From Utricularia gibba (taxonomy: Eukaryota > Streptophyta > Magnoliopsida > Lamiales > Lentibulariaceae), in NCBI GenBank assembly GCA_002189035.1, contig NEEC01000018.1, positions 682,001 to 746,000 on the forward strand: a DNA stretch of 64,000 bases. The letters are read 5' to 3'. This document shows, piece by piece, positions 31,645 through 47,389 of the stretch (positions within the stretch are counted from its first letter, which is position 1; every line of letters starts with the position of its first letter). The notes below the pieces were generated by a model, which did no database searches, was not told where the DNA came from, and saw only the letters and a program-made list of their open reading frames with translations. The position numbers and the translations under genes are program-made.

Positions 31645-34600
31645 ATGGCACCGCATTCATCAAGGAAGCGGAAGTTCGAGTCTGAGTTGAAGCAGAATGG
31701 GAAACTGCCGAAGAAATCAGATGACAATGGCGAAACCCATGCTAGTGAATTGTCACTTCATGATGAAGATGAAGATTTTCCCCGAGGTTTTGATTCTTCT
31801 CACACCATCTCATTCTGTTTCTGTTTTAACAATAGTTCAGTTTGGGTTTCCTTCATGGCCCGCTGACATGCTAAGTTCTACCTGAGCATTTTCTTTGTAT
31901 CACCTTGATGTAGGTGGAGGCAATGTAATGAATAAAGAAAAGAGAGCTAAGGCAATGGAAGCAGGGGGATCAGAAATAAACCAAGGGGCATTTAAGAGAG
32001 TGAAGAAAGAGAAGAAGCCAAGAAATAGGAATATGTCTGCGGACAATGATAATGGCTCGCTCTTTAGTGATGGAGTTTTTGGGAAATTTCCAAGATTTGC
32101 CAATAAAATCACCTTAAAGGCATGTTCTGCTTCGTGTTTTTCAATCCTCATTGCAACAGGATTCCGCTTTTTCATTCTGATGAGCTTTGCCCCATATCAT
32201 TGGCAATAGGATTCCGTTTCTATTCTTTACCTCTCATGCTAACTACTTCCCAATGATTAATCGCTAATGTGTATCCTTCATTATTGACATCTCTCGCCCA
32301 TTGTCCCGGAAATGTGGCATTTTTGGTCCTTGCAATTATTATCTTTCCACTATTTATTGTATGGATTTTTGTAAGCAATTTTCGTTTCATTTTCAGAATG
32401 TGTCCCCAGGAATGAAACTTTGGGGTGTCGTTGCAGAGGTTAATGAGAAGGATATGGTAGTTAGTTTGCCAGGAGGCTTACGAGGAATAGTTCGTGCTTC
32501 TGATGCTGTTGATAAGTTCGTAGATGATGCACTTAAAGCAGTACTTATTCTCCTCCCTGATGCATATGGGATCTAGTTGCTTCTCTGTTGTCATAAGAAT
32601 GCATATCACTGTCGATTTTTTTGCTTTATGGCAGGATGCTGGTAATGACTTTCTGTCTAGAATATATAAAGAGGGGCAACTCGTGTCTTGTACTGTGCTG
32701 AAAGTTGATGATAGAAAGGATTCATCAAAACTGAAAATCTGGCTGTCACTGCGTCTATCATTGTTGTATAAAAGCTTACGGTTGGATGCCATTCAGGAAG
32801 GAATGGTAACTTATATTTCACTATATTTCTTTGATGTTATTAAATGAAATAATTTATGGGGCATTATGTTATTGCTCTGGATACCCTATGATCATGTGAA
32901 AGTTCAAAAATTGAAGTTCCAATGTTCTCTTATTCTTAAATCCATGGACTAATGGTATGCCATTGGATGTTGGCATTTTTGAGCTGGTGGAATTGATATG
33001 CTGTTTTTTTTTCTTTACTTGTGAAATTATGTGCTGTCAAGTGCTTGCTTTTTTTTGTTTGGATTTATCATATTTTCTTTGCACTATGAGTTGTCCTTGA
33101 TTTTATCATGGGTGTTGGTAAAGTTCTTAGTCTCATGTTGTGGCATGTGATATCAGGTGCTTAAAGCATACATCAAAAGCATAGAGGACCACGGTTTTAT
33201 TCTTCATTTTGGGTTGCCTTCTTTTACTGGATTCATGCCTATCCACAGTCTTTCAGGTACTTAATAATTATATTTCTTTGATATTTCTTCTGCTGAATTG
33301 AAGCCTCATTCAATTCATTTTTTTGGCTCTACTTTCTTAAGCAAGGATAAGTTTATTTGGATACTCATTCTAGTAGGTGCATCCCTCGTAAGAGGGTTTA
33401 ATTTTCTTCGCTATGTTAATGATTTCTAATTTTATACTCATTCAAGATAGGAGAAACGTTGAATCATGCGTGGGCGAAGTTGTACAAGGAGTTGTTACAA
33501 CTGTTGATAAGGCTCAGATGGTAATCCACTTGAGTTCAGACCCTGGTGTCATTATGAAGTTTGTGGTAAGATTTTTTCAAAAATAATGAGATGTGTTTTC
33601 CTGATATGGCACATTTTAACATTGATTTCATTATCTATTCAGACTAAAGAACTCAGTGGCATCTCGATAGATACACTCAGTCCAGGGATGATGGTCAGTG
33701 CTCGTGTCATTTCTGTGCTTGAGAACGGGATCATGCTTTCTTTCCTTTCATACTTTACAGGGACGGTATGTCTTTCCACCTTTGCATGCAAAAAATAGTC
33801 TCTTGAATTTTAAAGACAAGGGGACTTGTGCTCTTTACATGCAGGTTGACATATTTAATCTGAATAATACGTTCCCCCCTTCAAGTTGGAAGAATGATTA
33901 CCCGAAAAATGTGAAGGTGATTCCTTGCTGATGTTAAAGAAGCTATTACACATTTTTCTGATTAGCCAACTGTAGTAATTTGTTTAGGGTTTTGAAAGAT
34001 GGGGCTTTTTTGAACTCTAAGCATCTGCTGTTCAACAGTGCTCGTTTTGTTGTTCTGTGAACTGGTTAACTTCTTTTCATCTTGACGATTTGGTAATTTG
34101 ATGTTTAAAGAGTTATTCCTGATATTTCTACCTCACTTGTTTATCTGCAGGTCAATGCGCGCATTTTGTTTATTGATCCTTCAACTAGGGCTGTTGGTTT
34201 AACAATGAACCCTTACCTAATTGCTAACAAGGCGCCACAATGTGTAAGTATACCTTCACAAACTGTGTCTATCATATTATTGCAAATGCTGGTCTGCTAT
34301 TTAAGTATATGTTCATGATACTTTGGTAGAAATTTAGCTCATGCATGTGGTTTTCTGCCATCCGTAAAAGATATAAAACTGTCATTCTTCTTATTAGTAT
34401 GCCTTTTTTCCCACGCAGCTTGTTAAAATTGGTGATATATTTGATGAAGCCAAGGTAGTGAGGGTTGACAAGGCCTTTGGCCTTCTTGTGGAACTTCCTA
34501 CTGTGCCGTGTAAAACCCCTGCTTTTGTTAGCGTAAGGCTTATGCTTTTCCTAGAAAAAAAAAGAAAAAATATTTAGTCCTAAGATAACACCTCGAATTA

Positions 34601-37600
34601 TTTTATGGTGTCAAAAATTCAGGTTGCTGATCTTTCTGACAAGAGTGCTGTAAATTGGGATAAGAATTATAAGGAAGGAAGCATGGCTCGCCTTAGGCTG
34701 TTGGGTTACAGGCACTTGGAAGGGCTTGCTATTGGTGCTGCGAAGGTTTACTGATACTTATTTATAGTTATTTTTTTTGACCACACGCGCATGATAGGTT
34801 TAGGAGCATCTTGATGCGTGATTTTACTGCATTCTTCTGTATGATGAACGTATTTTTATATGCGTAAAAGAGAAAAAAAAATAGAGAAGGATAATGATAG
34901 GTGAGTGACTATTCGCTGTTAATTACGATGTGTTTCATTTCAATCATACGTTCCATATTGTCCAGGCTAGTGCTCTTGAAGGATTGGTTTTTACCCACGC
35001 TGATATGAAGCCAGGAATGATTGTGAAGGGTAAAATTGCTGCTGTTCAATCTTATGGCACAATCGTGCAATTTGATAGTGGAGTAAAGGCCCTTTGCCCC
35101 TACGTCATATGTCAGAGCTTGAAAGAATGAAGCCCCCTAAAAAATTCCAGGTTATTTAGTTGAAAAGTTGAAGTGGTCACCAGTTACATTTAAGCCGCAT
35201 ATAGTATCTTCATATCACATTTCAAATCTCACCTACTGAGTGTCTACAGGTTGGGGTTGAATTAGTTTTCCGTGTCTTGGGTTGCAGATCAAAGAGAATC
35301 TCTGTTACACATAAGAGAACTCTTGTAAGTTCAAGGCATCCTTTTGCTGCATCTACTTTGGATGTCACTCTTTTGCTTTTTCAAGTTCATTTGGTTTTGT
35401 ATTCTGTGCATTTCCACTCTGATTATAAACGTAAGATTTGTGAGACTAACAATGTATGCCTGTTCTAAATTGACCTAGATTTTAGATTGCTGTTCTGTAT
35501 TTTTTTTTACCCAAAATATGTTAGGATGGTGCACTGAGTAGAAAGTCATGAATCTATCACTTAATAACTTATGAAGCCCGGGAGGATTACATGTTTTTCC
35601 ATGCTATTCTCTTGTACCTGTAAATCCTATGTGTATTTCGCTCTGCCATTTGAAAATATTAAAAAGTGTTGATTTTTCAATCCCTGAGAGAAAGGGCTTT
35701 CGAGCAGTCTCATATCAACTTATCTTTTAGCTTGTACATGCTCAGATAGGTATGAGCTTGCTTATATCAGCAGACAGCTTAAAAATGTTTTCTAGTTCCC
35801 TTGAATACTGATCAAATGATATATAATATTATGATTATGGAGGAAGTCTTGTGGTTACTGTTGTTATATCATAAAGGTTCTACCTTGTTTTTAATGAAGT
35901 CCTAAAACATGATTTTTTTTGTTTTTTGGGTTGGTTACAGGTGAAATCTAAGCTTCCCATTCTAAGTTCGTATGCTGATGCAACTGATGGACTAGTCACT
36001 CATGGATGGATTACAAAGATTGAGAGCCATGGGTGTTTTGTTCGCTTTTACAATGGGGTTGAAGGATATGCACCAAGGTTCCAATTAAATTTTGTTAACT
36101 GGTGTTTTTTGTCCATGGTATATGTGGAACCGCCTATTTTCGCCTTCTAATGTGTCTTTGCTGATTGCATGTTTAGAAGATTGTCAATGATGGCGTCTTT
36201 TGATATGATGGTTTATTCAGTTCACATAATTTACTCTTTCCAGGTCTGAACTTGGTTTGGAACCAGGTAATGACATAGGTTGCAAGTACCATGTCGAGCA
36301 AGTTGTCAAGTGTCGAGTCATTAAAGGTCTTGCTACTTCTTGCCGGATAGGCCTCACATTTAACGTAGCACAATCAAGGTTGATTTTCATTGAAGAATTT
36401 GCACAATTAATTTTGTTCTTATGTAAAAGCTTTGGTATGATACTGGTTTCTTTGTTTTTAGCGTGTGGATCTATTGTTGAAAGTTGAAATGGCTTGCAGC
36501 TTCTAATTTTTTCTTGTAATTTGATAGGATGCCATTGATTGAGAGTCTGAAGCCAGGTTCTGTAGTTTCTGGAGTATGTGAGTACGTAACATCTCAAGCA
36601 GTTTCAGTAAGTATTGAAGTCCCAAACCAACCAAGGGGCACCATCACTATTGAACATTTGTCTGATCATCATGGTACTTTTTTTTATTGTTGGTATAATC
36701 TGCTTAATTTTATATGTTACATTTATCATTTTCTGTGTTATTATACACTGTTAAATTTGGTAATTGTTAAGATATTTGAACTTTTCCTGTTCATGGTTTT
36801 ATGTTGACTTGTTTCTTGTTCGTGCAACAGGCCTTGCCACAACGTTGGTGTCAGTTATGAAGCCTGGACATCATTTTGATGAACTGCTAGTTCTTGGTAA
36901 TGGGCTACCTGTGCTTAAGGAGATTTTATTTTTTATTTGATCATGTTCGTACCTGTCTAGATTTGTTAAAAATAGTAGGTTTCATGTGCAGTACAATGCA
37001 TAATCTGTTTGAGAAGAACAGATTTCCTGTGCCAAGTTCACCATTTTTTCAAATGCAGATTATCTTTTCTTTTCTATTGTACTGTTGTATTTCATAACCA
37101 TAATTTAGTGAGCAACTATTGGGGCGGGAATTTTAGAATAATACTCCTGTTTTTTTACAAAATCATCTTGCTGTACCCAAGGAATATCCTCAGGAAATGT
37201 CATTCAGTCTCAATTTGATATTCTGATTATTCGTCCTATCAATTTGATGTTGCAGATGTCAAAGGGAGCACAGTTGTTCTCTCAGCGAAGTATTCACTTA
37301 TCAGGTCATCAAAACAACTCCCTTCTGAAATTAGTGATATCAACCTCCAGTCAGTGATGCCGGTTAGAGTTCCATTACATCGTTTTCTGTATTCCATCAG
37401 TAAAATCTTGCAATCTTTTCTGTCCATTCTTGAAACGGGAACATGTAACGTTAGCTTTTATTCTAGCCTCTCATTTTTTGGGTCATGATGCTTTATCAAC
37501 TAGGGTTACATTTGCAACATAATTGAAGCTGGTTGCTTTGTTCGCTTTCTTGGAAATTTAACCGGGTTTGCTCCTAAAAACAAGGTGAGGACATAAATCG

Positions 37601-40600
37601 GCTCCTCTTTATTTTATTTTATTATTTTACATAGCAATGATTGAAGTTTTGATACTCTTTGTAGGCTACCGATGATAGGAGTTCAAGCCTTCTTGAGGTT
37701 TTCTATGTTGGACAGTCTGTTCGCTGCAGTGTTGTTAATGTAAGCATTGAAGTTAGTGGCACAGTTTAGAATACTGGCATTACTCTACTTTAATCATGCC
37801 CGAATCCATAGATGTTTCTTTTATATGAAAAATACAAGAATTGTTGTGAATTCATTCGACATTGAAAAAAAAAAATAGTATTTTTATTCCTTGGGTTGGG
37901 ATTTGTCCGATCTCTGTGGTAATCATTTTCCTTTGCATTATAGGTCAATACTGAAGTGGGAAGAGTAATGCTGTCGCTGAAACAATCATTATGCTGTTCA
38001 ATCGACACTTCTTTTATTCAGGAGTACTTTTTATTAGAAGAGAAGGTAGGACATAAAGCTCCCTTTGAAATTCAGTAAAGGGCATCAAATCTGATTGGTC
38101 TTCTTTCGCTATGTAACATTTTTCACAAACCTCAACAATCCAATCTTGGTGCCTAATTGATAAGTTTTCCTGCTTTGGAAAACCCTCTCGTTTACCTTCC
38201 TTTTCCCCTTCGACCTCATGGGCACATTTTTCTTGTAATTATAAATTAATAATTTTGTGTTGTTTACAGTTAAATCGGTCATTGGTATGTTTGCTGTTTA
38301 GAAATTGGTTGGGTCTTTCGTGATTGTTGATTATGGGATCATTGCTAGATTACAGTAAATGTCCTTTTCTTGGGGAAGGGGATAGTGGTAAGAAGATACG
38401 TGGTTTTGGTGGGGCTCTCACACTTGGCATGTTATGATTCACGGTTTTTAGTCTGTGCTCCTACTATTTTATTTCACACATGCTGCAGTTTGTGATTCTT
38501 TTGTTATTTTATTTTGTATTCTTTCCCCAGATTGCACAGATGCAAGCAATTGACACTAAAAGCTCTGGATTGAGCTGGAGTCAGGATTTTGGTGTTGGCC
38601 ATGTTATTAAAGGAACGGTTCATGAAGTCAAAAATGTTGGGTTGTTGTTAACTTTGAGAAATACAATGATGTCTATGGCTTCATCTCACATAACCAAAGT
38701 CAGTCACTTTTGCTTAAAGCATCAATAGTTCATTATTTTGATTTTATTTTTCTATGTATTCTATTATTTTCCAGTGACTGAAGCCAACCTGGAGGTTAAC
38801 TCTGTTATTGAAGCTGTTGTGCTTGACGTGTCAAAGATTGACCGCATAGTGGACCTGTCGTTAAAGCCAGATTTGCTTAGTGGATGTAAAGAAGAAAGTT
38901 CTCTACGAACTCCCAAGGTTTTCCGCTGTCTTATGAATGGTCATCTTGTGGTTTCCTGGTCCCTGCAACCTTCCTTATCCATCTGTCTCTAGTGGAAATG
39001 CATCATCATTTTTCACAATACTTCCTGCAAATTTCTGCATTAATTTTTGCATGATTTGGATATGGTTTTTATGTTAGGTGTTAAACCTTTATTTTGTTGA
39101 TATCCCTTTTTTATTGAACATTTTCATTTTTGTTTGCTAAACCTACTTGTCTGTGATTCTATTTTTCGTTCTAGAAAAGAAAGAAGGAAGCCTCTAGGGA
39201 TTTGGAAGTAAATCAAATTGTGGACGCAGTTGTTGAGATTGTCAAAGAAAACTATTTGGTATTTCTCGTTTTATCATGATAATGAAATCATATATCACCA
39301 GCATTTCGTTCTTCCCTTTTCTTACACATGCACAAATATTTTCTTAATAGGTCCTTTCTCTACCGAATCATAAACCTTCAATAGGCTATGCATCCAGAGA
39401 TGATTATAATACTCAAAAATTGCCTCCAAAACAATTTTCTTGTGGACAAAGGTAACTGTAATGTTGGTTCCAATCTAACTTCCGTCTATTTATGCATTAT
39501 ATATCCAGGTTTTCTTTTCCCCGTGTGTTTAAGCTGTCGCTGAGGTTTTTTAATATGAAGGGTCAGTGCCACAGTAATGTCTCTTCCGGCACCGTCAACT
39601 GGTGAGAGGTTGCTACTGTTGCTCAGCTATATGGGTGATGATATGGAAAATTCTAGATTGAAGCGGGCTCGGAAAAAAAGTTGCCATGATGTTGGATCTG
39701 TTTTACAAGTGGAGGTAAGGCTATATTCTATGTGGAGTGATGGTTTTTCTGTTATCATTGTACTAAACAGTTATCACTTTTTTTAATCCGTGGCTGTTTA
39801 TTTTTTTGCTTCTTAGATTACTGAAATAAAGCCACTTGAAGCCAGAGTAAAATTTGGATCAAAACAGCGTGGAAGAATTCATATAACTGAGGTATGGATC
39901 TGTTTGCTTTGTGCCGTTTATTTTAATTTTGTATCTTTGCTTACTCTTCATGCACATATGTGGTGTGGCGATCAGTAAGTGTGTGTATCTGCTGTACTGG
40001 CAGACTGCGGCTGAAAATTCTTGCGACAGCCCCTTTGGTGCCTACAAAGTTGGGCAAACAGTTAGAGCAGTAATTGTTTCAGGGGGGAATAAATCACATG
40101 AGGGTAGAGGAGGTTGTCAATGGGAACTATCTATCAAGCCTTCTTTGCTTGAAGGTAAGCATTTTCTTAGTTGGACTTCAATTCTCCAATGCATGGGTTG
40201 TTCGTGGTGTCCAAATGATTGTTGGGTGCAAGAGTTTCAGGATACCGATTTCTTTAATTTTTCCCTACTGTATTTCATTCACAGGATCTCCCTTGAATGG
40301 AAAGCTCCCTGAAGTTCCTGAAGACGCTAGCTATGTTTATGGGCAGCATATTGTTGGTTTCGTGTATAAGGTTGACACTGAGTGGGTTTGGCTGGCAATA
40401 TCCCGTGATATCAGTGCTAAGTTACATATCTTGGATTCTTCATGTGAGCCTGCTGAGCTTGCGGACTTTCAGAATCGGTTTTATGTGGGTCAAAGAGTTG
40501 ATGCCTACATAGCAAGTCTAAGTAAGGAGAAAAAGTTGATGCGTGTAACCTTGATTAGACCAGCTATTAATCCACCGAAATTTGGTCAAGATGATTCATT

Positions 40601-43600
40601 TTACCACATAGATGAAGGCAATGTCATTGGTGGGAGGATATTTAAGATTCTTTCTGGTGTTGGAGGAGTGCTGGTCCAAGTTGGTCCACACCATTACGGC
40701 AAGGTACATTTTATGGAGTTGGCTGATTCATGGGTGCCAAACCCTCTCTGTGGTTATCAAGAAGGCCAGTTTGTGAAATGTAAGGTTTTGGAAGTTTATT
40801 GTTCTGATAAGGGCACCGTCCATGTTGATTTATCACTGTGCTCAGCATCAGCCTCTTCACCTGACATGGAATCTACTGACCAAAGCAGCAATATGTAAGG
40901 ATATTTCCAAATTCTCTCATTGCAATTTAATATTGATAGGTCTACTATAATAGGGTAAACGTAACTTCTCTGTACCTCATACATGCATATCTTATCGTAA
41001 AGCATCCCACCTCTCAATATTAAAGCCCGCCTTTTTATCAGTTGGCACGAAAAACACTACAATTTTGGGCATTTCCATTATTTTTTCTGTTATATGAAAT
41101 ACTTTGCTTATTGAAAAGATGCTACCAAAGAAGATTTACTGAAACTTAATCCTTTGCAGGCTGGCCAGACGTGTCACTGATGTTAAAGATATTCTCCCCA
41201 ATATGGTTGTTAAGGTACCTAGAAATATGATTTATACTAGATATGCTAGTGGTATCCATGTTTTTTGTTTCTAAGCTTAATTTGATTTTTTCCAATGTTG
41301 CCCACGTGCAATTATAGTTTAAAGTTTCCATTCCCATCAATGTAACACTTTTTCCACCTACAGGGTTATGTAAAAAGTATCTCAAATAAAGGATGTTTCA
41401 TAATGCTTTCACGAAACATAGATGCCAAGATTCTCATATCAAATTTGTCGGACAATTACGTTGAACATCCAGAAAAGGAGTTTCCGGTCGGAACACTTGT
41501 GATGGGGAGGCAAGTCAATGTGTCCTTTTAATGTGTGGATTCTAGGGTGCTGATGTGACACATTCTCCATGTAGGGTTCTTTCAGTGGAGACATTGTCAA
41601 AACGTGTTGAAGTAACTCTTAGAACTTCAATTGGAATGTCTGGAAAAAGTTCAAATGCTGATTCCTTAGATGATATCCTCGTTGGCTCTGTTGTGTCTGG
41701 AAGAATCAAGCGTGTAGAGGCATATGGGTTGTTTATATTCATTGATGGAAAAAATGCAGTAAGTTAACTTCATGGGCTCATGATGAAATTTTAATTATCA
41801 AAAGTGGTAATGATTTTTTTAATCTATGATGTCAATCTTGAAAATGCTGAAGATTTGTCATTTCCTATAGTATGAATTTTCGTAATTAAAGAATCCACTT
41901 TGACTGAACCATGTGAGCTGAATTTTGTACTGTGCAGGTTGGATTATGTCATGTTTCAGAGATTTCTGATTGCCAAAGGGAAGATTTAGATGCAAAATAT
42001 TCTGTGGGACAAAATGTGACTGTTAAAATTTTGAAGGTAATTTTCGTCTCGCCTATTTAACACTAGTGTGTTTCATCCTAGGCCTTGAATAACTAAAGGA
42101 GCGCTTGAGTTGAATATTCTTTGTTCTAATATTTGGTCCTGCATTAATTCATTTTTTTAATCTAAGATTGGCACAGTTTTTCTTTCTTATTCCTTGTGTA
42201 TTAGCATGAAATAAGTTGTTCTAATTCCTATTTCAGGTGGACAAGGACAGAAATCGAGTTTCTCTTGGGATGAAGAGTTCATATCTGATGAACGAGGAAG
42301 AATTTTCGGTTTCTGAAGAACAAATTCGTGATCCATCCTTTACTAAGAAGGATTCTATTTCTTCAGCTGACATAGCTTTGGAAAACGACTACAGTGTTGC
42401 TTGCATTGGCGATAGTTCTCATGATATACCAGCAGTTTCTGAATCTAGGGCTCTTGTGCCACCTCTTGAGGTTCCTCTTGATGATGTCGAAGACCGTACT
42501 GCTGAAGGTGCCGCTGATGAAGAAATTTTGGTAATTTCTGCTGGCAGTAGTGAAGAGAAGACGCCCAAAAGAGGAAAAAAAGGAGCTAGATCACAGAGGT
42601 GAAAACATAATCTAATATTGCTTTAGTTTTATATATAACATGGTACTGCTAGTTTATGTCATGGTTGCTGCCTTGTGGATTATTAACTGAGGTTTTCTCC
42701 GTATGAATAGAGAGGTAGAAATTAGGGCTGCAGAGGAGAGGCTACGAAAAGATGGTATCCCAAGAAATACTGATGAATTCGAGAAACTTGTACGAAGTTC
42801 ACCAAACAGCAGCTTTATTTGGATAAAATACATGGAATTTATGCTATCTTTGGCGGATGTTGGTAAAGCTAGATCCATCGCAGAAAGGTAGGTTAAGTGT
42901 TTATTATTTACTCATGGCTTCCTTTTATTTTACGTTGCCTATTTTTTTATCCTCATATTATTGGCTTGTATGAGTTAGTCTGCGTAAAGCTTGTTGATTT
43001 TATGTATAAATCGTTCTGTAATCTGAATATATGTTAGATATCCATTTTCAATGAGGGGGTGCATGAAAACTCTGCATGTCTGGTGTGTTGAATGTAGAGA
43101 TTATTTTTATGGAGTTATTTAACTGTAAGATGTAAGGGCAGATGAATCTAACAGAACATCTCCTTTTGAATTCCTCTTTATAATAGTCGTACTTGGCTTG
43201 GATCCCTTGCAAGTTGCATGAATTGGTACCTCGATCCGGCCCCAGTAGGCCCATTTCCATGCGTATTTTCATTTTTGATAGTAGCATCCTGTTGCATTTG
43301 CTCAGTGGTCTGTAGTCACCTTGATTTGCAATGATAATATTTTCATTTTTCATTCTACCAAGTCATTTGTCGATGTTTCATTTTTCTTCTTCCTCGTTTC
43401 ATCTATTAGCTCTACGGTGTCTCAATTGATTCCAATGTTTTAGGGCATTGCAAACAATAAATATTAGAGAGGAGTCAGAGAAGCTTAACGTCTGGGTTGC
43501 TTATTTCAACATCGAAAGTGAGTATGGCAGTCCTCCTGAGGTACTATTACAATTATATGATCCATTTCTCGATGTAACTTGTCAGTGCAGATTTGTCATT

Positions 43601-44469
43601 TTGGGGTTTCTTTACCTGAGTGCCATGTTTTAAATCTCCAGGAAGCAGTTAACCAAGTGTTTCAACGAGCATTGCAAACTTGTGATCCCAAGAAGTTGCA
43701 CCTTGCTCTTCTGGGCATATATGAGGCCACAAAGCAGCATGACCTGGCTAATTGTCTTCTTGATAAAATGAAAAAAGCTTTCAAGCATTCTTGCAAGGTA
43801 CCAACATTTTTTCAGGTGGAAATTTTTTTTCCTGTGCTTACCAACAACTATTCTCCATAATGCCGCTTAGGTATGGCTGAGAAAGGTGGAATATCTTCTG
43901 AAAACGAACTCAAACGAGATTGAGTTGGTTGTAAAACGTGCAGCTGAGTGCTTGCCCCATCATAAGCAATTGAAGTTCAGATTGCAAACTGCCATCCGTG
44001 AATTCAAACTTGGAGTTCCAGACAGGGGTAGGTCAATGTTTGAGAACATTCTCAAGAACCATCCCAAGAGGACTGACGTATGGAGCATATATCTGGATCG
44101 GGTAAGCCCAGAAAATAACCCATGTTTTTTTTTGTCTCGATTGCCAAAAAGGAGAGATGCATTTGAGTTTGTACTGCGCTTAGTAAGTTGCCCTGATGTC
44201 AACAGGAAATCCACCTCGGCGACCAGGATCTCATTCGATCTTTGTTCGAAAGGGCAACAAGCTTGAGCCTTCCCCAAAGAAAATGAAGGTCCCGTGTTCC
44301 CACTTATGCTCTTGTGTTGCTCTCTGTCACTCGCACAACTCACATCTTCTCTGTGATTCAGTTTCTATTCAACAAGTATCTGAAGTATGAACAATCAGTG
44401 GGCGATGAAGAGCGCGAGGAGCTGGTGAAGAAGAAGGCAATGGAGTATGTGGAGAGTAGACTCACTTAG
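31645..44469 (+). CDS. rRNA biogenesis protein RRP5 (three frameshifts in this sequence)
   Basis: Forty exons can be placed by splice sites and phase. Examples are 31645-31786, 31914-32119, 32397-32540, 34966-35150, 38531-38698, 40285-40894, 41364-41509, 42237-42598, 43871-44101, 44206-44288 and 44362-44469. Together they total 5,700 bases, three short of 1,901 codons. The protein has many tandem S1 RNA-binding repeats (for example [47 protein letters not shown]) followed by HAT/TPR-like repeats from about 42,700 ([46 protein letters not shown]). RRP5 is a nucleolar factor needed for both 18S and 5.8S/25S pre-rRNA processing. The length equals the Arabidopsis protein, as I recall it. Exons 12, 22 and 39 each lack one base in a C or G run, so the frame as written is broken. 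ATG 31645 has a good context (GCAATGGCA); 31597 is an in-frame alternative. Confidence 0.93.
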
Positions 44470-44586: not shown

Positions 44587-46804
44587 TTATGAAGGAAGAT
44601 AGCCGGATTTGGCCATGAGCTTGAGAAGGGAGTGGGCTTTTCTCTGGCCTCTCTCCGTCCCATTCCTCGACACCTCCACCACACTATCATACACTCCGTA
44701 TTGCAGCGCCGCCAGTATCAGGTTCCGGTTGCCGGTGCCCAGCGCCACCAACACTGCTGCCGCGCATTCTTGGTTCTTTTGGTTCCCCTCGCGGATCAGA
44801 TTCACCAGCGTCTCAATCATGTGAAGCTGCCCCACCTCTCTTCTCCCTTCCGTCGACTTCGCTAACACAAGCATCATCGACAGCGCTTCGTCCACCATCT
44901 CGTCTTGGTTTCTGTCGGTGATCACAGATTGGAGCACCGCCGCTATTCCGGCGTCGATTGCGTGGGATGTGTTGGTGCCGTCGTCATGGCAGATGTTGAT
45001 TAAAGCGGTCATCGCGTCTTTCTTGCCCCGTATTGTTCCCGTGCGGAGGAGATTCACCAGCGGTGCGATTCCGTTGAGGGCTGCGATTTTGACCTTGTTT
45101 TCTTCGAGCATCGAGAGGCTGAACAGCGCCGCCGCTGAGTTCCCCTTCGCGTCGATTGTTCCGTTCTCCAGGATCTCGATTATCGCGGGGAATGCTTTTT
45201 CTTGGGAGATAAGCTTCTTGTTCGATTGTTCAATCGACAGATTCAGAACAGCTGTCACTGCTTGTTCTTGGATTCTAGGATCCGGATACGAGAGGAGCTG
45301 CACGACTAACGGAATCCCGCCGGCCTCCGCGATTAGAGTTCTGTTCACGGCGCTTTCTTTTGACAGCTTCCGAATCTTCTCCACCGCTTCTCGCTGCTCA
45401 TCCAGCTTGCTTGAACTCAGGCTCTGAACCAGTGTCGATATCTCCTCCCTGTCTGCCGCCGTTGCCTCCTCCGCCCCCGCAACCGCCGCCGCGGCCTCTG
45501 AATTGTCCTTCTTGACAATCGGATAGTTGTTTTTTTCACACCATTGAAGAATCAGATTCTTGAGAGCGAAATTAGGCGCCAATGACAAATGTGATAGAAA
45601 TTGCCCTGTTTTGGGGCATGTCCTATTGGTATCCAACCAGTTCTGTATGCTCTCCCTCTCGTACGTCTGATGAGTGTGACATCTAGCATGAGTCTCTTAC
45701 CTGAAGAACAGAAACCATGATCGGAGAAACGAACCTGTCCGGTGGCAACGATGACAGGGTCCGTCATGATCTCCAATGTGATGGGGCATAGGAACTCATT
45801 GGGCACTCCCAAGTAGGCGCACTTGCTGGGGGATTTAGGCACATTGGAGTCATTAGCTTCGCCTGGGTTTTCGGCGGCAACCCCGGCGAGCGTCTTCAGC
45901 TTATTAAGCAGATTGACGATCTGCTGCGTAGTTTCCGACTTGGTGCCTTGACGTTCCTTGATGAGCTTGTTTATTGCCAGAGTTTCTTGGGTCAGTTCTT
46001 CAGGTGTTTGCAGTGAGAGCTTACTTGCGAGCCTCTCAAAACTTGCAATGTCTGCGTTTCTGTTGTCTTCGTTCGTGGTTGCTGCTGACGAGGCTACCAT
46101 CAGGTCCATTGTCAGTTCAATGTCTTGCGATTCTATTCTCTTCCTTGCTCTTCTCAGCTGCACTTGCAGCAGCTCTACCTTTTCAACCAGCCATTTGGTG
46201 TGCGTGAGGTGAAGTCATTACATGTTGGGAAAAACATTTCTTCAAACATGTTACCTGCTCTTTCTCTTCTTGGGAGATCTCCATTTCCTCGTAAGGCATT
46301 CCTTCAACAGCTTGACTTATCTTGTCGTAAACTGCTTTGAATCTCAGCATCATGGACTCGCTTTCTATCGCCTTGAATTCCAAACGCCAGATCTGAGAAG
46401 CCTGGTCGCAAGAAGCCAGAAGGATGGGGGAAAAAAAAGAACATTCTAACCAGAAAAATCTTGCTGCCGCCATGGCAAAGCTTCAGGAGCTTCTTTGCGG
46501 ATTGGAACGCTTTTATCAGCTTCTTCAAACATGCAATCGCCGAATCCGGCAAACTCGTCGACTTTTCGACGTCTCTGATCTCTTCCAACAATGGTGAAAA
46601 AAGCTTCATTCTCCTCACCAAGCTCTGGCATTCTTTCCTCTGCGTTCTCCTGAAGTCTCCTATCGATCTCAACGATTCGACGATGGCGATGGCTTCTTCC
46701 GCGAGAGTGTCATCCCCATCCTCCCTACGCGCCGGGATCGCGGATTCCTTCCTCTTCTCATTCTCGACGTCTTCCGAGACCCTCGTCTCTTGATCCGTAG
46801 CCAT
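44587..46804 (-). CDS. U-box/ARM-repeat E3 ubiquitin ligase (PUB15-like)
   Basis: Four exons, 46451-46804, 46255-46392, 45735-46178 and 44587-45666, encode 671 residues with all phases closing. The first about 260 residues form the helical UND region (LAEEAIAIVESLRSIGDF and following). The U-box spans about residues 289-360: VPNEFLCPITLEIMTDPVI, then TYERESIQNWLDTNRTCPKT, then LAPNFALKNLILQWCEKNN. Armadillo repeats fill the rest (GGIPLVVQLLSYPDPRIQEQ, AALFSLSMLEENKVKIAALN, GTIRGKKDAMTALINICHD). The U-box recruits E2 enzymes and the ARM region binds substrates. The family acts in immunity, flowering and cell death. The U-box wording looks closest to Arabidopsis PUB15 rather than PUB13/SPL11, but this is from memory. 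It converges with RRP5: the two stop codons are only 117 bases apart. Confidence 0.93.
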
Positions 46805-47389
46805 GGGATCGACAGCCCCCACCCCCCGGAATTGGATGTGGATCAAGAAAAGAATGAATTGATGGATGGAATGCGTCTGCTCAAAAACACACGGTGGTGC
46901 TTGAGAACGCGGCCACCAACACAATCAGTCGTCCAATTATCTATAAATAAGGAACCCCGGTTCCTGAGACCTCAACAATAAATAGTTCATTCCACTTTTT
47001 TTTGAAGACAGATGCTGCTTAATTAACTGTTTTCTGCCTTGCAGCCCTTCTCCCGCACCTGGGCTTCGCCTTCTTCTTGGTGTGCCGAGATGTTGTCTCA
47101 TGCAACATTTGGCATGGTTTTACAGGTAGAGTGATTTGGGTGCACAGTAAGGCGCTAAGAGGCATCATCAATATCCAGTAAGAGAACGGACACAGGATCA
47201 TTTACATTAAGGAACTGAAACACAAGGACTTGCAGTGAGAGGGTAAGAGCAGCAGCAGAGGCAATGCAACCCCTCTCTGAGATGACTTTACATGCAAAAG
47301 AGGTCCCAGTTGGGACTCTGGATTGCATTATAGGGCAGGGGATATCATGACGCTGACACACCACATTTAGCAGTAGTCGTCCATGGGGA
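46805..47389. other. U-box gene 5' flank and 3' flank of the next gene
   Basis: A palindromic GGAACCCCGGTTCC lies at 46951-46964 in the U-box gene's upstream region. The remainder should be 3' untranslated sequence of the Ser/Pro-rich gene. No gene recognised. Confidence 0.35.

Follow-up and report, generated by a model that had tools for sequence, protein, structure and literature searches.

In the Utricularia gibba assembly the gene for the rRNA biogenesis protein RRP5 is interrupted by three one-base losses, each lying in a short run of C or G. We consider these losses to be almost certainly uncorrected homopolymer consensus errors in an intact, single-copy gene, a strong inference rather than a demonstration, and we conclude that the gene is neither a pseudogene nor recoded. 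Unrelated gene families across the assembly show the same class of lesion, and so do redundant contigs of a single locus when they are compared with each other.

The RRP5 gene and its frame breaks

The window analysed is a stretch of 64,000 nucleotides (contig NEEC01000018.1, positions 682,001 to 746,000; our C409), and by homology it contains a complete plant RRP5 gene on the plus strand. The gene runs from a start codon at 31645 to a TAG stop codon at 44467-44469 (31645-44469 overall), and the exon model, based on GT/GC-AG introns, open frames and homology to yeast and Chaetomium Rrp5, holds 40 exons, 39 introns and, as assembled, a coding sequence of 5,700 bases. All 39 introns have accepted ends, 37 being GT-AG and two GC-AG (intron 2, 32120-32396, and intron 31, 41510-41574). 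Intron 20 also holds a piece of ~92 bp (37798-37889) with 85% identity to the region of a plastid-like trnL intron. Its match on contig C515 has tRNA-Phe, tRNA-Thr and a group I intron beside it, so that plastid DNA appears to have been inserted here into the nuclear genome.

Chaetomium and yeast Rrp5 were matched from near the N-terminus to the C-terminus (phmmer E values of 3e-137 and 4e-137, respectively), with one stretch aligned poorly, so that the likeness to RRP5/PDCD11 covers almost the whole protein. As in yeast YMR229C, PDCD11 and Arabidopsis atRRP5, N-terminal tandem S1 RNA-binding domains (PF00575, E 7e-10 at exon 12 and weaker at exon 22, together with S1-repeat alignments) are combined with C-terminal HAT/TPR, Suf-like repeats (PF05843, E 5e-8; yeast Rrp5 C-terminal domain, E ~1e-29). 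A role in pre-rRNA cleavage, the function addressed in work on plant RRP5 (PMC3559688), is therefore probable from homology. The window gene differs from known RRP5/PDCD11 in the three apparent one-base breaks of its assembled DNA, which we judge to be artefacts.

An earlier note made from the letters alone had described three one-base losses in C or G runs of this gene, and its coordinates and run lengths proved exact, the frame shifting by one base at each site. The first break, the loss of one C, lies in CCCC at 35097-35100, in an S1 domain encoded by exon 12 (34966-35150, 185 nt). The second, the loss of one G, lies in GGG at 38639-38641, in an S1 domain of exon 22 (38531-38698, 168 nt), and the third, again a C, in CCCC at 44272-44275, in a C-terminal HAT repeat of exon 39 (44206-44288, 83 nt). 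Frame 0 is read up to ...VKALCP in exon 12, ...EVKNVG in exon 22 and ...RATSLSLP in exon 39, after which the reading continues in frame 2 (for 16 residues, for 18 residues and as KKMK, respectively). Each of the stretches 31645-35100, 35101-38641, 38642-44275 and 44276-44469 is read in one open frame, and from one stretch to the next the frame shifts by one lost base. Outside the three runs, no further stop or splice lesion was found in the 5.7 kb of coding sequence and 39 introns.

The note had also held that one added base restores the reading at each site, and homology bears this out, weakly in the case of the second break. The S1 domain of exon 12 is matched at E 7e-10 when read across the break versus 1.5e-3 in the uncorrected frame, and the Chaetomium Rrp5 alignment continues through this site. 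The exon 22 read-through peptide gives a weak S1/S1_RRP5 match (E 5e-4) where the uncorrected frame gives none; the exon 22 region alone returned nothing significant as a PDB query, and Pfam S1 was used instead. The C-terminal read-through aligns with yeast Rrp5 directly across the third break (E ~1e-29). Judged by these alignments, the frame that continues after each break is the homologous frame. A frameshift-tolerant ab initio decoder, which favoured cryptic introns over frameshifts, was rejected as a judge of the breaks, and homology decided.

All three breaks are single-base changes of length within a homopolymer. Because C/G runs of three or more bases hold only 4.9% of the observed RRP5 coding sequence, the placement of the losses is non-random (p ~1e-4 for three random one-base losses all falling in such runs).

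A relic but no second RRP5 found

A sole RRP5 that is broken three times is not credible, because Arabidopsis rrp5 insertion alleles hardly pass through the female (transmission 0.00-0.02, that is, 0-2%; PMC3559688). The earlier note had proposed, as one of two readings, that this copy is decaying and that an intact paralogue lies elsewhere, and had called for a genome search. Neither the whole gene as a DNA query nor a protein query of 704 residues found a second intact RRP5 in the 100.1-Mb, 516-contig assembly, in which a gap could hide one, and the remaining matches, at 30-39% identity, belong to generic S1/HAT genes. This part of the note thus found no support beyond a short relic.

The relic lies on contig C98 (1532665-1533013; L010, 1501-1849). 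It is ~350 bp long, ~76% identical to the window gene and interrupted by stops in all frames, and of the gene only parts close to exon 34 and to the last exon remain in it; its flanks show no copy of the U-box gene that neighbours RRP5 in the window. This is how true gene decay looks in the Utricularia gibba genome, and the fragment belongs with the unprocessed pseudogenes that follow gene or genome duplication. The window RRP5, unlike an unprocessed pseudogene, has lost none of its exons or introns, and its frame is open between the breaks. The mixed lesions that mark pseudogenes (stops, splice-site loss, larger deletions) are absent from it outside the three runs, and the intact functional copy that would accompany a pseudogene was not found in the assembly searched.

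The same lesion in other gene families

The class of lesion seen in RRP5 recurs across the assembly in unrelated families. Scanning 30 UDP-glycosyltransferase loci for frame switches revealed five breaks, all five being one-base losses in C/G runs with an expected length of 4-6 (p ~3e-6 under random losses). In HSP70, where breaks within the coding sequence were located against intact paralogues, four of five are one-base losses within or beside a C/G run (C451, C496 and two in C255). The fifth, at L029 (C304:2.236 Mb) and L028 (C241), is a one-base loss that cannot clearly be assigned to a C/G run. It is common to C304 and C241 and adjoins an intact tandem copy, and the HSP70 copy that carries it may be a real pseudogene. 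Since two contigs share this break and its placement in a C/G run is not clear, some breaks elsewhere may also be real. Comparison of C241 with C304 as a test for error was rejected, as the two are diverged copies (16 mismatches).

At least two P450 breaks are of this class, with single losses at a C/G run in the genes at C413:1.83 Mb and C1:2.39 Mb, and the P450 at C412:1.91 Mb has lost one base in a G run or in the adjoining A run. Four further P450 candidates (L083, L085, L086 and L087) were taken to be ordinary introns and, like L084, were not counted. Every break localised in the HSP70, UDP-glycosyltransferase and P450 families loses a base, and none gains one. The error is not uniform, since numerous long frames, of P450 genes and others, are intact. 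Of the sequences tried as single-copy yardsticks, the PROCN domain of PRP8 is intact in one frame, and matches to the RNA polymerase families are split by introns.

Redundant contigs, compared over short pieces, provide an instance of the lesion beside its intact counterpart. C376:11,700-13,890 and C413:5.391-5.393 Mb represent one P450 locus, and their only differences across 2,166 aligned bases are one mismatch, T8/T9 in an intron and GGGG versus GGGGG in a P450 coding exon; the frame is broken in C376 only, by the shorter run. Near-identity extends over ~2.2 kb; the compared pieces then cease to align, which suggests an insertion or rearrangement. The difference in run length could in principle be allelic, but it points to consensus error because changes of run length make up two of the three differences. 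This P450 lesion is the same as that in RRP5. Matching lesions in unrelated families and between redundant contigs thus support the other reading of the earlier note, that the assembly drops bases in C/G runs, and leave its interpretation as a whole partly supported.

With denominators that are estimates, there are five breaks in ~42 kb of UDP-glycosyltransferase coding sequence and nine in ~62 kb when HSP70 is included. At the resulting ~0.12-0.15 breaks per kb of coding sequence, 0.7-0.8 would be expected in RRP5, and three or more would have p ~0.03-0.05, given the rough denominator. This excess is unremarkable, because RRP5 was singled out for being broken. The rate also answers a doubt raised in the note, namely that neighbouring genes have no such breaks: the U-box gene (44587-46805, minus strand), the sole neighbour checked, is indeed open in its four approximate exon segments, but at 0.12-0.15 breaks per kb this does not speak against error.

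Weighing the explanations

The three frame breaks could mean that this RRP5 copy has truly, and recently, been inactivated while an intact paralogue elsewhere supplies its function, and the decayed fragment on C98 indicates that the genome once had a second RRP5. We regard this as very unlikely, as neither query recovered such a paralogue (gaps leave a small doubt), the relic retains only two parts of the gene, the window RRP5 is without stops or splice lesions, and the lesion class is genome-wide. It is more improbable still that RRP5 is intact as assembled and that alternative splice sites keep its frame open. An ab initio path of 41 exons does avoid every frameshift, but in exon 12 it removes 86 bases from the S1 domain, exon 22 then closes with 19 non-homologous codons, and most of the exon at 37944-38045 is lost, as are 47 bases of exon 39. 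What it omits from exons 12 and 39 matches Rrp5 or S1/HAT models, and one gene would need three unrelated rescues.

Real breaks that the cell overcomes by RNA editing, by slippage in transcription or by ribosomal frameshifting would be compatible with a gene that is essential in Arabidopsis and otherwise conserved, and with the location of all three sites in homopolymers. However, at 3-4 bases the runs are short for slippage, the HSP70, UDP-glycosyltransferase and P450 lesions would demand a genome-wide mechanism, and run length itself varies between redundant contigs. We know of no plant nuclear precedent for three bypass sites within one gene, and give this explanation scarcely any credence. 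The same negligible weight falls on a single RRP5 that truly has three losses in the living plant and is recoded or functionally replaced by a diverged factor.

Consensus error is thus the explanation we adopt. Homopolymer length would be poorly resolved in PacBio continuous-long-read data, consensus calling would tend toward one base too few in short C/G runs, and the lost base would never be restored at a later step. We infer that the assembly analysed is the PacBio/HGAP long-read assembly of Utricularia gibba (88x, N50 3.4 Mb; PMC5793159). The match to published descriptions (Unitig_8 of 6.8 Mb and 18 contigs over 1 Mb; PMC8333044) is imperfect, as the coordinates met here imply somewhat more contigs over 1 Mb. 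Homopolymer indels dominate long-read errors (PMC12007338), and the errors of long-read-only assemblies resemble the RRP5 breaks in being single-base homopolymer losses that fragment genes and mimic pseudogenes. The Utricularia gibba breaks differ in that nearly all lie in C/G runs of only ~3-6 bases, whereas that report concerns mainly nanopore bacterial assemblies. Against assembly error stand the number of breaks in this one gene, somewhat above the estimated genome rate, the HSP70 break shared by C304 and C241, and the many long P450 and other frames that are intact. If consensus error is the cause, exons 12, 22 and 39 would measure 186, 169 and 84 bases in the living plant, and the protein would be full length.

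Were the breaks true, the outcome would be remarkable, namely an essential factor of ribosome assembly that does not function, but this is not where the evidence points. The RRP5 case matters solely as a caution. Approximately one-sixth of the UDP-glycosyltransferase loci examined have an apparent frameshift from an under-called C/G run, and claims of gene loss or pseudogenes in the compact genome of Utricularia gibba need read support.
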